Source: Paludisphaera soli (lineage in GTDB: Bacteria > Planctomycetota > Planctomycetia > Isosphaerales > Isosphaeraceae). Taken from it: 64,000 nucleotides of DNA. The translations under genes were made by a program, and so were the position numbers. The notes under the pieces were generated by a model, which was not told the DNA's origin, searched no databases, and saw only the letters and a program-made list of their open reading frames with translations. Positions 3,601 through 6,988 of the stretch are shown in pieces (position 1 is the stretch's first letter; every line of letters begins with the position of its first letter). Location of the stretch: NCBI RefSeq assembly GCF_011064595.1, contig NZ_JAALJI010000026.1:1-64000 (forward strand), read 5' to 3'.

Positions 3601-4344
3601 TCACTTCAGTTCCTTGATCGCGATGTTCCGGAACTGGACGAGGCTGGGAGGGCCGGTCCATTCGCCGGCGGAGTTCTTCGCGCCGTGGTGCTGGAGGGCG
3701 AGGCGGCCTTTCGCGGGGAGGTCGGGGATCTCGGCGGCCTCGATGACGACGACGCCGTTGAGGACGGTCGTCACGGTGTTCCCCTTCACGGTGATCTCGA
3801 ACGTGTTCCACTCGCCGACGGGTTTGTCGGCCTGGTGCTTGGGGGTCACGGCGGCGCGGAGTTCGGGGGAGGTGGCGGGGTCGGTGCGGAGGCCGTACAT
3901 CTCGCCCGAGCCGATGGGCCAGCACCAGATGTTGGCCTGGTACGTCCCGTCGCCTCGGAGGAAGACGCCGGAGTCGGAATCCGGCAGCGCGAGCTGGAGC
4001 GGCTTGCCGTGGATGTCGCGGGCGTGGCTGCCGTCGGGGAGGATGTACGGGATGTGCTTGTTGATGAACGGAGTCTCTTTGATCCGCCAGTCGATCCGGA
4101 GCGTGAAGTCGCCGTACTCGCGCTCGGTCCAGAGATTCTTGTCCCCCTTCGCCTCGCTCTCGGCGTCGTAGTCGATCGCGCCGTCGACGACCTTCCAGTG
4201 GCCGCCGTCCCCCTCGGGGACCGTCCAGCCGGCGAGGTCCTTGCCGTTGAAGATCGGGGTGAAGCCGTCGGCGTCCTCGGCCCGGGCGGCCGAGATCGTC
4301 AGCAAGCCCAGGGCGGCGATCGCGGCGAGGCGGATTCCGGTCAT
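3601..4344 (-). CDS. Secreted DUF1080 (3-keto-disaccharide hydrolase-type) protein
   Basis: A 247-residue protein with a clear signal peptide (about residues 1-22, ending SAARA before ED). It consists of one DUF1080 domain, a concanavalin/LamG-like beta-sandwich found in very many copies in Planctomycetes. Recognisable landmarks are FTPIFNGKDLAGW after the signal peptide, a central GVFLRGDGTYQANIW, and NTFEITVKGNTVTTVLNGV near the C-terminus. The family includes 3-keto-glycoside hydrolases and carbohydrate-binding proteins, so a role in periplasmic sugar breakdown is likely but unproven. A longer in-frame ATG exists at 4482, but the start at 4344 places the signal peptide at the N-terminus and has AGGAGA 8-13 bases upstream. 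Confidence 0.85.
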   Translation of the reverse strand: MTGIRLAAIAALGLLTISAARAEDADGFTPIFNGKDLAGWTVPEGDGGHWKVVDGAIDYDAESEAKGDKNLWTEREYGDFTLRIDWRIKETPFINKHIPYILPDGSHARDIHGKPLQLALPDSDSGVFLRGDGTYQANIWCWPIGSGEMYGLRTDPATSPELRAAVTPKHQADKPVGEWNTFEITVKGNTVTTVLNGVVVIEAAEIPDLPAKGRLALQHHGAKNSAGEWTGPPSLVQFRNIAIKELK

Positions 4345-4604
4345 CGGTCGGTCTCCTGTCGGCGTCCGTCGGATTCCCATCCCGGCGAGTCCGGGCCGAC
4401 CTATCGTGGCCTCGCGGCGAGGGCGTCGCAAGGCGCCCTCGCCGAGCGAGTCGGCCGCGAGGATGGGGCCGCCCTCGCGCAATCCCGGAGACGCCCGGAT
4501 GCATCCCGCGACCCGAGGCCATGATCACGATAAGGGATGCTCCGCGCGGGGCGGATCGCCGGCGGCCGAAGCGACGTGGAGAAGACTCGCATAACACGCG
4601 AATG

Positions 4605-4719
4605 CGCGCCGAACGAACCCAATCTCCGGGGGCGAAACGCGATGTTAAGTTGTTTTATCGATATGGCTTGCGTCGATTGGGTTCGTTCTCGGTCGGCGCG
4701 AACGGACCCAATTTTCGGA
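4605..4719. repeat. Three-armed palindromic repeat, copy 1
   Basis: A left arm GAACGAACCCAAT (4611-4623) is repeated in perfect inverse orientation at 4676-4688 and again directly, with one change, at 4700-4712. The last two form a hairpin with an 11-base loop. The same arrangement, with identical spacing of the left arm and the hairpin, recurs 226 bases further on. Confidence 0.7.
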
Positions 4720-4830
4720 TTCGCGACTCGGCCATTCCGCCGCATCGGGACGAGCGTCGGGGCCAGTCGATCCAGGGGCCGTCACCCCGGCGAAATTCTG
4801 CGGGGAGCCCTGTCGGATCGGACTCGAAAG

Positions 4831-4945
4831 CGCGCCGAACGAACCCAATTTCGTGGGCCGATCTCAGTAGGTAACATCAAGGAGATAAATGTTTTACGTC
4901 GATCGGCTTCGTTTTCGGGTCGGCGCGAACGAAGCCGATTTCCGG
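4831..4945. repeat. Three-armed palindromic repeat, copy 2
   Basis: It has the same 115-base layout as copy 1: left arm GAACGAACCCAAT at 4838-4850, and a hairpin whose arms are 4902-4913 and 4928-4939 (ATCGGCTTCGTT with AACGAAGCCGAT, a perfect 12-bp stem). The stem bases differ from copy 1 on both sides in a compensated way, so the structure is conserved while the sequence is not. It lies immediately downstream of the phosphatase stop codon at 4960. Confidence 0.7.
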
Positions 4946-4959
4946 GCGGCTCCGGGCGT

Positions 4960-6915
4960 TCAACGGAGTTCCGGGGCGATGCCGGCGGCCTGGCGGACTT
5001 CGGGGTCGCTCGGTCGTTCGACCAGGGTTTCGGGGCCGGCGGGCTTCTCGATGACGAACGAGTCGGCGACCTCGCCGTCGCGGGTCCAGGCGCGGTAGGT
5101 GAGGCGGCGGGAGGTCTCGTCGATCTCCATGGTCTGATAGGTTGCGGTCCGGGTGCGGCCGACCTCGATGTAGTCGCGCGAAGGCTGGTCGTCGACGAAC
5201 TTGTCGCCCGAGACGGCGACGACGTAGGTGGTCCCTTCCGCCGAGGTCGAGACCCGCTGATGGCCGCGCATCGGGGGCGTGCGGAGGTAGGCGTGGTCGT
5301 GCCCCTGGAGGACAATGTCGACGTGGTGGCGGTCGAAGACGGGGACCCAGTGCTCCCGGATGACGGGGTTGTCCCGGGTCGGGTGGGAGGGGTAGATCGG
5401 GTGGTGGAACATCACGAACTTCCAGTCGGAGCGGGTGTTCGCGAGGGCCTCGTCGAGCCATTCCGCCTGCCGACGCGCCTGGTCGTCGCTCATGACGGCC
5501 GAGGTGCTGTCGAGCACGGCGAAGAAGGCGCCGCCGTAGCGGAAGCTGTAGGCCAGGCCGGGGGTCAGGCCCGGCGGGCCGTCCTGAGGGAGCCGGAAGA
5601 CCGAGTTGTAGAGCCGGGGGCCCTGGTCCAGGTACTCGTGGTTGCCGGCGGCCGGCATCAGCGGGACGCGGTCGAACACCTGCGCCGCGCGGAGGAAGAA
5701 ATGGTCCCAGTTCGTCCGCTCGTTGCCCCGGTCGACGAGGTCGCCGGCCAGGAGGATGAAGTCCAGGCCGGGGTGGCGCCGGGAGGCGGCCGTGAGCAGC
5801 GTCCCCCAGGATTCGAAGCCGGTCTGGGCGTCGCCGAGGTAGAGGAACTCCATCCGCCTCGGGCGCGCGGGGCCGGTCTTGATCGTCCGCCAGGAGCCCC
5901 AATTGGCCGGAGAGCCGTCGCCGACCGAGTAGTAATACGTCGTGTCGGGCTCCAGGCCGTCGACCGTGACGGCGTGACGCAGGACGACCGGGTCGTTGAG
6001 CAGGCCGTCGCAGCGGATCGGGCGGGCGTCCCCCTGGATGGTCCGCATGCCGACCAGGTCGGGGGGCGAGGTCGGGTCGTCCTCGGGCGTCTTGTACTTC
6101 GCCGGGGCGATGCGGACGACGCTCGACGTGACCCGGAGGGAAGTCCGCCAGCTCAGGACGAGCTGCCGCGTCGGGTCCTCGCCGAAACTCACGACCATCT
6201 GGTCGGGCAGGTTCGTGGAGGCGGAATGCGTCTTCCAGACCCGTCCACGGGCCAGCAAGGCCGCGTGGCGACGATCGTGGGCGGGCTGGAGCAGGACCGA
6301 GCCGTCGAGTTCGTCGGGGATCGCGCGGATCGGCCGGTGGCCGTCGTTCGACGCGCTCACGCCGTCGCGGGCGACGACCGCTTTCCAGGTCGCTCCCTCG
6401 TCCGCGACCAGCGCGAGCGCGGCCGGATCGAGGGCCTCGCGACCCGGGAAGGGGCGGACGAAGGCGACGTAGTGGGCCTCGGGCGAGCGATCCAGGCCGT
6501 TGACCCCCAGGCCGATCCAGCCGGCGGGGAACGTCTTCCGGTGCACGTCCCAGGCGAGCCCGTCCACTTCGATCGTCAGGCCCGACGGGCGAAATCCCTG
6601 CTCGGCCAGCCAGAAGGGGGGCGACTTGGGAGGGGCGGCGACGGCGACCATCACCGGGACCTCGGCCCGGAACCGCACGGCGTCGCGCCCGAGGGCGTCG
6701 CGTTCCGAGGCTTCGAGCCACGGGAGGAGCAGGGCCTGGCGGGTCGCGGCGGCGGTCAGCTCGCGTTCCGACTTCACCTGGCTGAGCCGGACGCCCGCAG
6801 CGTCGAGGGTCGCGCGGGGGCCGGGGAGGGCCTCGATGGGCGCGGCGTCCCGGCAGCCGGCGCAAGCCAGGGCCATCAAGACGAACCAACCCCGGCATCG
6901 CTTCCATTCGTGCAT
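4960..6915 (-). CDS. Purple acid phosphatase-like metallophosphoesterase, probable lipoprotein
   Basis: A 651-residue exported protein. Residues 1-21 form a signal peptide ending ACAGC, a plausible though imperfect lipobox with Cys21. A unique N-terminal region runs to about 230, a fibronectin-like purple-acid-phosphatase N-domain spans about 235-345 (VLSWRTS, GLEPDTTYYYSVGDG), and the calcineurin-like domain follows. Its metal-binding motifs are all present: GDAQ (361-364), GDLVDRG (391-397), GNHE (425-428), HHP (504-506) and GHDH (538-541). It should hydrolyse phosphoesters at the cell surface and may supply phosphate to the Pst system encoded 9 kb away, although no Pho box is visible in front of it. 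The start at 6915 is preferred over one at 6972 because of AGGAGGG upstream and the signal peptide. Confidence 0.85.
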   Translation of the reverse strand: MHEWKRCRGWFVLMALACAGCRDAAPIEALPGPRATLDAAGVRLSQVKSERELTAAATRQALLLPWLEASERDALGRDAVRFRAEVPVMVAVAAPPKSPPFWLAEQGFRPSGLTIEVDGLAWDVHRKTFPAGWIGLGVNGLDRSPEAHYVAFVRPFPGREALDPAALALVADEGATWKAVVARDGVSASNDGHRPIRAIPDELDGSVLLQPAHDRRHAALLARGRVWKTHSASTNLPDQMVVSFGEDPTRQLVLSWRTSLRVTSSVVRIAPAKYKTPEDDPTSPPDLVGMRTIQGDARPIRCDGLLNDPVVLRHAVTVDGLEPDTTYYYSVGDGSPANWGSWRTIKTGPARPRRMEFLYLGDAQTGFESWGTLLTAASRRHPGLDFILLAGDLVDRGNERTNWDHFFLRAAQVFDRVPLMPAAGNHEYLDQGPRLYNSVFRLPQDGPPGLTPGLAYSFRYGGAFFAVLDSTSAVMSDDQARRQAEWLDEALANTRSDWKFVMFHHPIYPSHPTRDNPVIREHWVPVFDRHHVDIVLQGHDHAYLRTPPMRGHQRVSTSAEGTTYVVAVSGDKFVDDQPSRDYIEVGRTRTATYQTMEIDETSRRLTYRAWTRDGEVADSFVIEKPAGPETLVERPSDPEVRQAAGIAPELR

Positions 6916-6960
6916 GTTCCGCCGTCCCTCCTGGATCTGGCGCGTCGACTTGAGGAAAGA

Positions 6961-6988
6961 TAGATACCGCATCGGGCCGAGTCTTCAA
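6961..6988 (-). promoter_or_regulatory. Possible promoter of the metallophosphoesterase gene
   Basis: On the minus strand this reads TTGAAG, 16 bases, TATCTA. The spacing is slightly short and both hexamers are imperfect, but it sits 46 bases before the ATG at 6915 in the only intergenic gap available. Confidence 0.35.

Follow-up and report, generated by a model that had tools for sequence, protein, structure and literature searches.

Plasmid iterons are direct repeats that stand in helical phase next to AT-rich DNA, RNAs of the CsrB/RsmZ type carry a repeated short motif, and matS is the set of sites for the protein MatP. Noc, SlmA and MatP each combine tens of dispersed short sites with one DNA-binding protein that acts on the nucleoid. 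For Noc about 70 NBS sites are given, and for SlmA 24–52 SBS sites (PMC4726725). The sites of these systems are palindromic and are depleted near the terminus. REP and BIME sequences are high-copy intergenic repeats, and the cited part of PMC2817692 describes a 5' GT(A/G)G head before the REP hairpin.

In this paper we analyse a family of repeated elements from Paludisphaera soli and its relatives that partly resembles each of these systems. Like the sites of Noc, SlmA and MatP, the loci are dispersed over the chromosome (80 in the genus mate SH-PL62, and 58 in P. borealis, counted over its first 7.12 Mb), and one DNA-binding protein would act on the nucleoid through them. Unlike those sites, the repeated arms are asymmetric and grouped, and they are accompanied by an AT-rich core, a promoter-like block, even spacing and, in P. 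borealis, a helical register. The arms share with plasmid iterons the arrangement of phased direct repeats beside AT-rich DNA, but they occupy 58 to at least 85 loci per genome. They are high-copy and intergenic, as REP and BIME are, but they have no GT(A/G)G head (the consensus foot before the middle arm reads TTGCGTC in a 50-copy alignment), they do not preserve a palindrome, and their loci are evenly spaced rather than clustered. As in the CsrB/RsmZ RNAs, a short motif is repeated in a possibly transcribed, untranslated unit; unlike those RNAs, there are at least 85 loci, no conserved hairpins, and a motif that is C/G-degenerate.

Our searches of open-licence papers on such repeats and on planctomycete non-coding RNA brought up no earlier description of this repeat; in the cited portions of the genome paper on P. 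borealis and SH-PL62, the word ‘repeat’ is used for CRISPR and for one partly duplicated gene (PMC5352709). The condensed nucleoid of Gemmata has liquid-crystalline order, as the cited part of PMC3440768 reports. A set of loci that is phased locally and evenly spaced globally gives a direct handle on how planctomycetes fold such an unusually condensed nucleoid.

The window locus and the arm family

The window is the whole stretch of DNA analysed, 64,000 nucleotides of about 70% GC (G000:C117:1-64000) from the P. soli assembly, which comprises 7.97 Mb in 197 contigs. The original prediction placed two copies of an element of about 115 bp here, with a common arm geometry, and both are found, at 4609–4712 (copy 1) and 4835–4939 (copy 2), between two minus-strand genes. 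Each consists of two direct-repeat arms, L and R (CGAACGAASCCAAT), plus a partial inverted arm, M. The features of the locus are as follows.

3601–4344, minus strand: neighbour gene, from a codon-usage gene call; presumably 3-keto-disaccharide hydrolase/DUF1080-like
4497–4540, plus strand: promoter-like block, which fits a 44-bp motif found de novo in 84 left flanks, the window locus included
4610–4623, plus strand: arm L of copy 1 (CGAACGAACCCAAT), from repeat search and family alignment
4645–4672, plus strand: AT-rich core of copy 1 (TTAAG ... CTTGCG), where the family alignment conserves AA and, some 22 bp away, TTGCG
4675–4688, minus strand: middle arm M of copy 1, an inverted, partial motif, from complementarity to L
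4699–4712, plus strand: arm R of copy 1 (CGAACGGACCCAAT), differing from the motif at one position, from repeat search
4836–4849, plus strand: arm L of copy 2, from repeat search
4872–4898, plus strand: AT-rich core of copy 2 (TAAC ... TTTTACG), from sequence and family alignment
4902–4913, minus strand: middle arm M of copy 2, from complementarity to R
4926–4939, plus strand: arm R of copy 2 (CGAACGAAGCCGAT), from repeat search
4960–6972, minus strand: neighbour gene, from a codon-usage gene call, with relatives detected; we take it to be metallophosphoesterase-like

Arm R of copy 2 lies 21 bp from the end of this convergent metallophosphatase-like gene. In copy 1, L and M show 100% complementarity along 14 bp with 50 nt between them, and the M–R stem has one mismatch; in copy 2, M and R show 100% complementarity along 12 bp with 14 nt between them. 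With up to two mismatches, the 14-mer occurs five times in the 64-kb window, always at this locus, against an expectation of 0.34, and none of 100 shuffles reached that number.

A search for further copies found many, both in the same genome and in relatives. Copy 1 as a query gave at least 46 matches in the P. soli genome (40 of 124 candidates scored). This genome contains 233 exact occurrences of the arm CGAACGAASCCRAT and none of its reversed control. The arms form at least 85 clusters. Within our Isosphaeraceae set, 28 of 45 genomes carry at least one exact arm and 8 carry at least ten. The genus mates have 141 exact arms in SH-PL62 (G031; chromosome of 6,507,102 bp), 118 in P. borealis PX4 (G028; 7,497,544 bp), 12 in G030, 4 in G029 and 1 in Planctomycetales bacterium 71-10 (G032, whose 29,370-bp contig is like MKTT01000005.1). 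Since exact arms are so few in the last three of these five genomes, this form of the element is not essential to the genus. In a sample of the phylum, 18 of 392 genomes, P. soli included, are positive for CGAACGAASCCAAT, and the others have one to three matches each, i.e. background.

In some other genera of the family the arm occurs in tandem arrays with other periods. One long array of 24-bp period in a relative (L116, G011:C1:3704500-3707500) is preceded by ATCTTTGACAATTT, which we take to be boxA-like. Two arrays of 54-bp period (L114 in G020:C117, L120 in G016:C233) lie inside ORFs predicted by a gene-call model that had this window as its training set, and may thus be coding in part in those genera.

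The neighbourhood of the metallophosphatase gene was compared among the genus genomes as well. No element is seen there in SH-PL62, G029 and P. borealis; one with altered arms is present in 71-10 and G030. In 71-10 a long inverted repeat (GTAAGGGTGGTCCGGGCGGTCCGCCCGGAC...), a different repeat, stands upstream of the variant element (L125, ~2130-2330).

A locus contains at least two copies of CGAACGAASCCAAT in the same orientation, and in most cases these flank a single AT-rich core. The arm, 14 bp long, is asymmetric, not palindromic, and in none of 85 clusters are strands mixed. Most elements have a core in which AA and TTGCG are about 22 bp apart. In the P. soli genome, the distance from L to R is mostly 70, 82 or 90 bp. 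These length classes differ in their further parts: an M-like arm is found in 75 of 92 pairs of the 90-bp class versus 1 of 31 pairs of the 70- and 82-bp classes, and a second half-motif after R in 10 of the 92 versus 23 of the 31, where both totals include a few pairs formed between neighbouring elements. The hairpin is therefore absent from the shorter classes, and the L–M inverted repeat is essentially restricted to the 90-bp class. In P. borealis, 29 of 43 loci contain an AT-rich interval, 27 of them exactly one; 24 of the 31 such intervals measure 81–83 bp, and the further arms, which bring a locus to as many as eight, stand outside the interval. A minority of arms, at L028, L029, L034, L092 and L174, are preceded by AAAGTGG or a similar word instead of GCGCGCC/GCGCG.

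Stem variation, helical register and spacing

The two window copies differ on both sides of the hairpin stem such that pairing is kept, and from this it had been predicted that structure is conserved over sequence. The copies do differ in this way, but the change affects a C/G position of the arm motif, and in the family it is not compensatory. We refer to this variable position, occupied by C or G, as S. Across 83 elements (22 pairs without a recognisable M are excluded), S varies independently in L, M and R. The tables involving M leave out 12 of the 83, in which a site is neither C nor G. Of the 71 elements that remain for the comparison of M with R, 38 match and 33 do not (Fisher p 0.33); p is 1.0 for L versus M and 0.12 for L versus R. 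The same independence was seen in a first pass on 49–50 copies.

Pairing as a whole behaves in the same way. In the 83 elements, M pairs with its own R at 83.5% of positions, compared to 83.2% for shuffled R arms (p 0.26), and with its own L at 83.6% compared to 83.0% (p 0.10). In an alignment of 50 of 53 copies, the paired cells amount to 85.0% for M–R (84.7% shuffled) and 84.8% for L–M (85.1% shuffled), M–R covariation is 0.118 against 0.121 in shuffles, and RNAalifold returns no pairs. The many-copy alignment thus shows no excess of covariation. We reject an RNA or cruciform kept by compensatory change on the independence of S, on pairing like that in shuffles, and on the empty RNAalifold result. 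Two copies with apparently compensated stems can mislead: what passes for compensation when only two are compared is, across 83, the noise of a single degenerate C/G position in the motif.

Among 210 otherwise exact arms, the class to which this tally is confined, S is G in 111, C in 99 and never A or T. No convincing pairing partner for S was found within its own L arm (best p 0.004 in 112 tests). Associations of S within R reach p down to 8e-6 in 94 tests, and they probably follow the length classes. Between orthologous loci, 6 of the 14 L arms that were compared have a different S, as do 3 of 8 arms from four orthologous pairs with a single element on each side. Because S is always C or G and has no pairing partner, we infer a protein that reads double-stranded DNA.

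The distances between arms point to the helix as well. In the 43 P. borealis loci they are concentrated at 45, 56, 67, 79, 90, 101, 112, 123 and 135 bp, with a core interval of 82 bp. For 150 intervals that are unique per locus, the best period between 5 and 20 bp is 11.25 bp (z 35.5); jittered controls average z 4.2, and none of 1000 reaches the observed value. When intervals are divided by base composition, not by length, the 113 AT-poor ones have a period of 11.25 bp, a phase of 0.00 and z 46.2, compared to an average null maximum of 4.3 (0 of 1000 reach the observed value). This period is near the helical repeats of 11.60 and 11.08 bp per turn obtained from lac looping in vivo, as quoted in the cited part of PMC1762422.

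The SH-PL62 intervals have a period of 11.15 bp (35 values); taken by themselves, the 12 AT-poor values of that genome do not reach significance (p 0.09). All P. soli intervals together give 10.95 bp, mostly from one class, and the AT-poor ones give 11.0 bp at phase 0.28 (33 values, z 11.2); neither the 70-bp nor the 82-bp core interval falls on the 11.25-bp grid. Phasing by integer turns is thus shown for P. borealis only. The distance from the upstream block to the arm has a period of 11.1 bp when the three genomes are pooled (83 values, z 14.6), a best period of 6.7 bp in P. soli alone, and no significant period in P. borealis (10 values, p 0.57). Twenty values from the arrays of other genera give raw scores of z 2.3 at 11.25 bp and 4.8 at 10.8 bp. 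The P. borealis cores of 82–83 bp (e.g. L174, L183, L194) correspond to about 7.3 turns at 11.25 bp, off the grid of the other arms.

In three genomes, loci are also spread along the chromosome more evenly than a random placement would give. Compared to a random model with a 3-kb exclusion, gaps shorter than 25 kb are rare: 3 against 18.9 expected in P. soli (83 loci, 59 gaps), 5 against 19.4 in SH-PL62 (80 chromosomal loci), and 1 against 9.5 in P. borealis (58 loci, first 7.12 Mb). The coefficients of variation of the gaps, with random values in brackets, are 0.51 (0.87), 0.67 (0.94) and 0.72 (0.95), respectively; for P. borealis, P is 0.012 on variation and 0.0002 on short gaps. The P. soli set combines complete arm lists for 11 contigs and for C110 up to 535 kb with pair and BLAST lists for 12 further contigs; the SH-PL62 set holds the 138 chromosomal arms of 141 (three are on other contigs); and the P. 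borealis set holds the first 100 of 118 arms, so that its loci number at least 58. Each set is built from exact arms, and its locus count is for that reason too low. Because P. soli and SH-PL62 share positions, the three results are not independent of one another. Available slots are not limiting, since 464 kb contain 79 intergenic regions of at least 250 bp, or one every ~6 kb. We also considered a polarity of the elements towards the replication terminus and rejected it: strands are mixed along SH-PL62 with no rule seen. GC skew in 20 sampled SH-PL62 windows has no clear turning point.

Loci that are multi-site, phased and evenly spread are easier to reconcile with a DNA-binding protein that associates with itself and acts chromosome-wide than with either a folded RNA or a mobile repeat. 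Our leading interpretation, which we put forward tentatively and as something short of probable, is that the element belongs to a set of docking loci distributed over the whole chromosome, each offering several sites to a DNA-binding protein that recognises a specific sequence and associates with itself. Such docking loci would probably serve chromosome organisation. The protein would bind the arms on one face of the helix; once bound, it would oligomerise and bend or loop the AT-rich core, and the set of loci might then anchor or partition the nucleoid. In a bolder form of the idea, which we consider possible and rather doubtful, the loci would be a quasi-even network of anchor cassettes, each with phased arms around one AT-rich core and coupled to a dedicated promoter, where a planctomycete protein forms a nucleoprotein knot every 65–125 kb on average and provides a ruler for folding the condensed nucleoid.

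The upstream block and transcription

We searched 84 left flanks, taken from 86 loci, for motifs de novo. The motif obtained is 44 bp long and has a log-likelihood ratio of 762, compared to 147–157 in three shuffled sets, which kept single-base composition only and were given 12 restarts of 40 rounds versus 60 of 60 for the real set. It contains a 10-box-like yATnnT (2.07 bits for the A and 2.14 for the T) with TYSSCA 16 bp ahead. Scores of at least 10 occur in 64 of the 84 flanks and lower scores in the other 20; in 54 of those 64, the predicted transcription start lies 65–115 bp before L (75–80 bp in 23). The window block scores 18.6, with a 35-like GATGCA at 4498–4503, a 10-like CATGAT at 4520–4525 and a predicted start at ~4532, 78 bp from L.

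In order to assess the motif on loci that had not shaped it, we retrained it without 18 loci located between convergent genes. Scores of at least 8 were found in 14 of these 18, and in 14 of 20 SH-PL62 loci, a set that partly depends on the training loci since many are orthologous. No such score occurred on the opposite strand, in right flanks or in shuffles (whose scores are means of five). Across 464 kb, the block at a score of at least 10 has eight matches, five before arms and three weaker ones elsewhere (two inside genes). It precedes just 1 of 140 gene starts and is therefore specific to the element, not a general promoter sequence. We take the block to be a putative promoter, and a likely one. 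It transfers poorly to P. borealis, where 7 of 43 loci score at least 8, compared to 1 of 43 on the other strand. This poor transfer and the near absence of exact arms in three genomes of the genus are the strongest facts against an important role for the element.

If the block is a promoter, the element might belong to a large family of non-coding RNA genes of ~190–200 nt, from promoter to R, whose arms bind protein or RNA much as a CsrB-type sponge does. Several observations agree with RNA genes. The block is found in those 14 of 18 convergent-gene regions, where an mRNA promoter is unexpected. By the gene positions of our own codon-usage caller, no cluster out of 85 falls within a predicted gene, 80 of 83 clusters have at least 119 bp between L and the gene closest to it, and in 36 of 50 cases R has a convergent stop at a distance of 0–40 bp. 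Moreover, a word that we take to be boxA-like follows the block in 10 of 86 left flanks (about three of the ten are poor matches by eye), compared to 3 on the other strand, 0.65 in shuffles and 2 in right flanks; among 154 gene upstream regions, 2 contain it.

The body of the putative transcript, however, does not behave like a conserved RNA. From predicted start to R, the mean fold z is −0.59 (first 40 of 61 copies), and no shared fold was visible by eye among 14 folds. Rfam gives no gathering match in the window; at relaxed settings there are two matches left of the arms, with E 0.076 and 2.5, far below the cut-off. C and G are exchanged at S without a partner, the P. borealis arms are phased at 11.25 bp, and the interior is hardly kept between orthologous loci (40% identity, against 36% for non-orthologous ones). 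The last comparison also led us to reject the idea of a guide RNA with the variable interior as guide. We therefore regard RNA genes as unlikely. In the docking-locus interpretation, the upstream block would drive a short untranslated transcript that enters the protein complex.

Age of the loci and mobility

The comparison of positions covers 20 SH-PL62 loci and 43 of at least 58 P. borealis loci. Of the former, 14 share an orthologous neighbour gene with an element locus of P. soli, where a rough estimate from random intergenic slots gives ~1.3 by chance. For these 14 pairs, the two arms are 96% and 94% identical, values that are partly set by construction, given that arms were found with at most one mismatch. 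The flanks are 30–31% identical without gaps, a low estimate since some flanks do align, and the block is 52% identical in seven orthologous pairs compared to 47% in non-orthologous ones; at multi-element loci, the pair compared is the one with the best block score and need not be the orthologous copy. The elements do look as though they are under selection, as had been suggested: recognisable arms persist beside an orthologous neighbour at these 14 loci while the surrounding sequence has largely diverged. In a small but unbiased sample, 20 SH-PL62 windows held four P. soli element neighbourhoods, two with arms and two without, the window locus among the latter. When the 43 P. borealis loci are compared with 86 P. 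soli loci, eight have a neighbour in common; against the 20 SH-PL62 loci, none do. Since eight is a lower bound, it suggests no more than that positions may change over long times.

A set of old mobile-element remnants, now fixed, whose insertions were kept apart by target immunity, would account for some of these patterns, since even spacing is what immunity would leave and only those 8 P. borealis loci, at a minimum, share a P. soli neighbour. We nonetheless find this origin improbable. No recent, near-identical copies were seen among 88 elements: the best-scoring pair reaches 77.7% identity over 260 bp in a ranking by the number of identical letters, which leaves room for higher similarity in shorter stretches, and interiors of equal length are at most 71% identical in 813 pairs. 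A single 100% entry of that ranking comes from overlapping windows on the same locus. Dead copies would not keep arms within one mismatch at 14 of 20 SH-PL62 loci beside flanks of 30–31% identity, and the helical phasing speaks against remnants as well. The suggestion of REP-like mobility lacks support in view of the same 77.7% pair, the neighbours shared with SH-PL62, and the single M-like arm in 31 pairs of the shorter classes.

Finally, a palindrome of the REP/BIME type, an element that stabilises mRNA 3' ends or an RNA fold maintained by compensating changes would suit many copies outside predicted genes and the hairpin possible in the 90-bp class, but each is very improbable given that covariation is absent, that the M-like arm is confined almost entirely to one class (75 of 92 pairs, 1 of 31 in the others), and that 35 of 85 clusters have no gene end at all on the R side.

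Six loci (L002, L066, L094, L095, L097 and L109) have a different left half, mostly without the promoter-like block. Repeated CACGGGTTC...GAACCCGTGGCACCC palindromes stand beside their arms, and these palindromes look like a second, separate repeat family.
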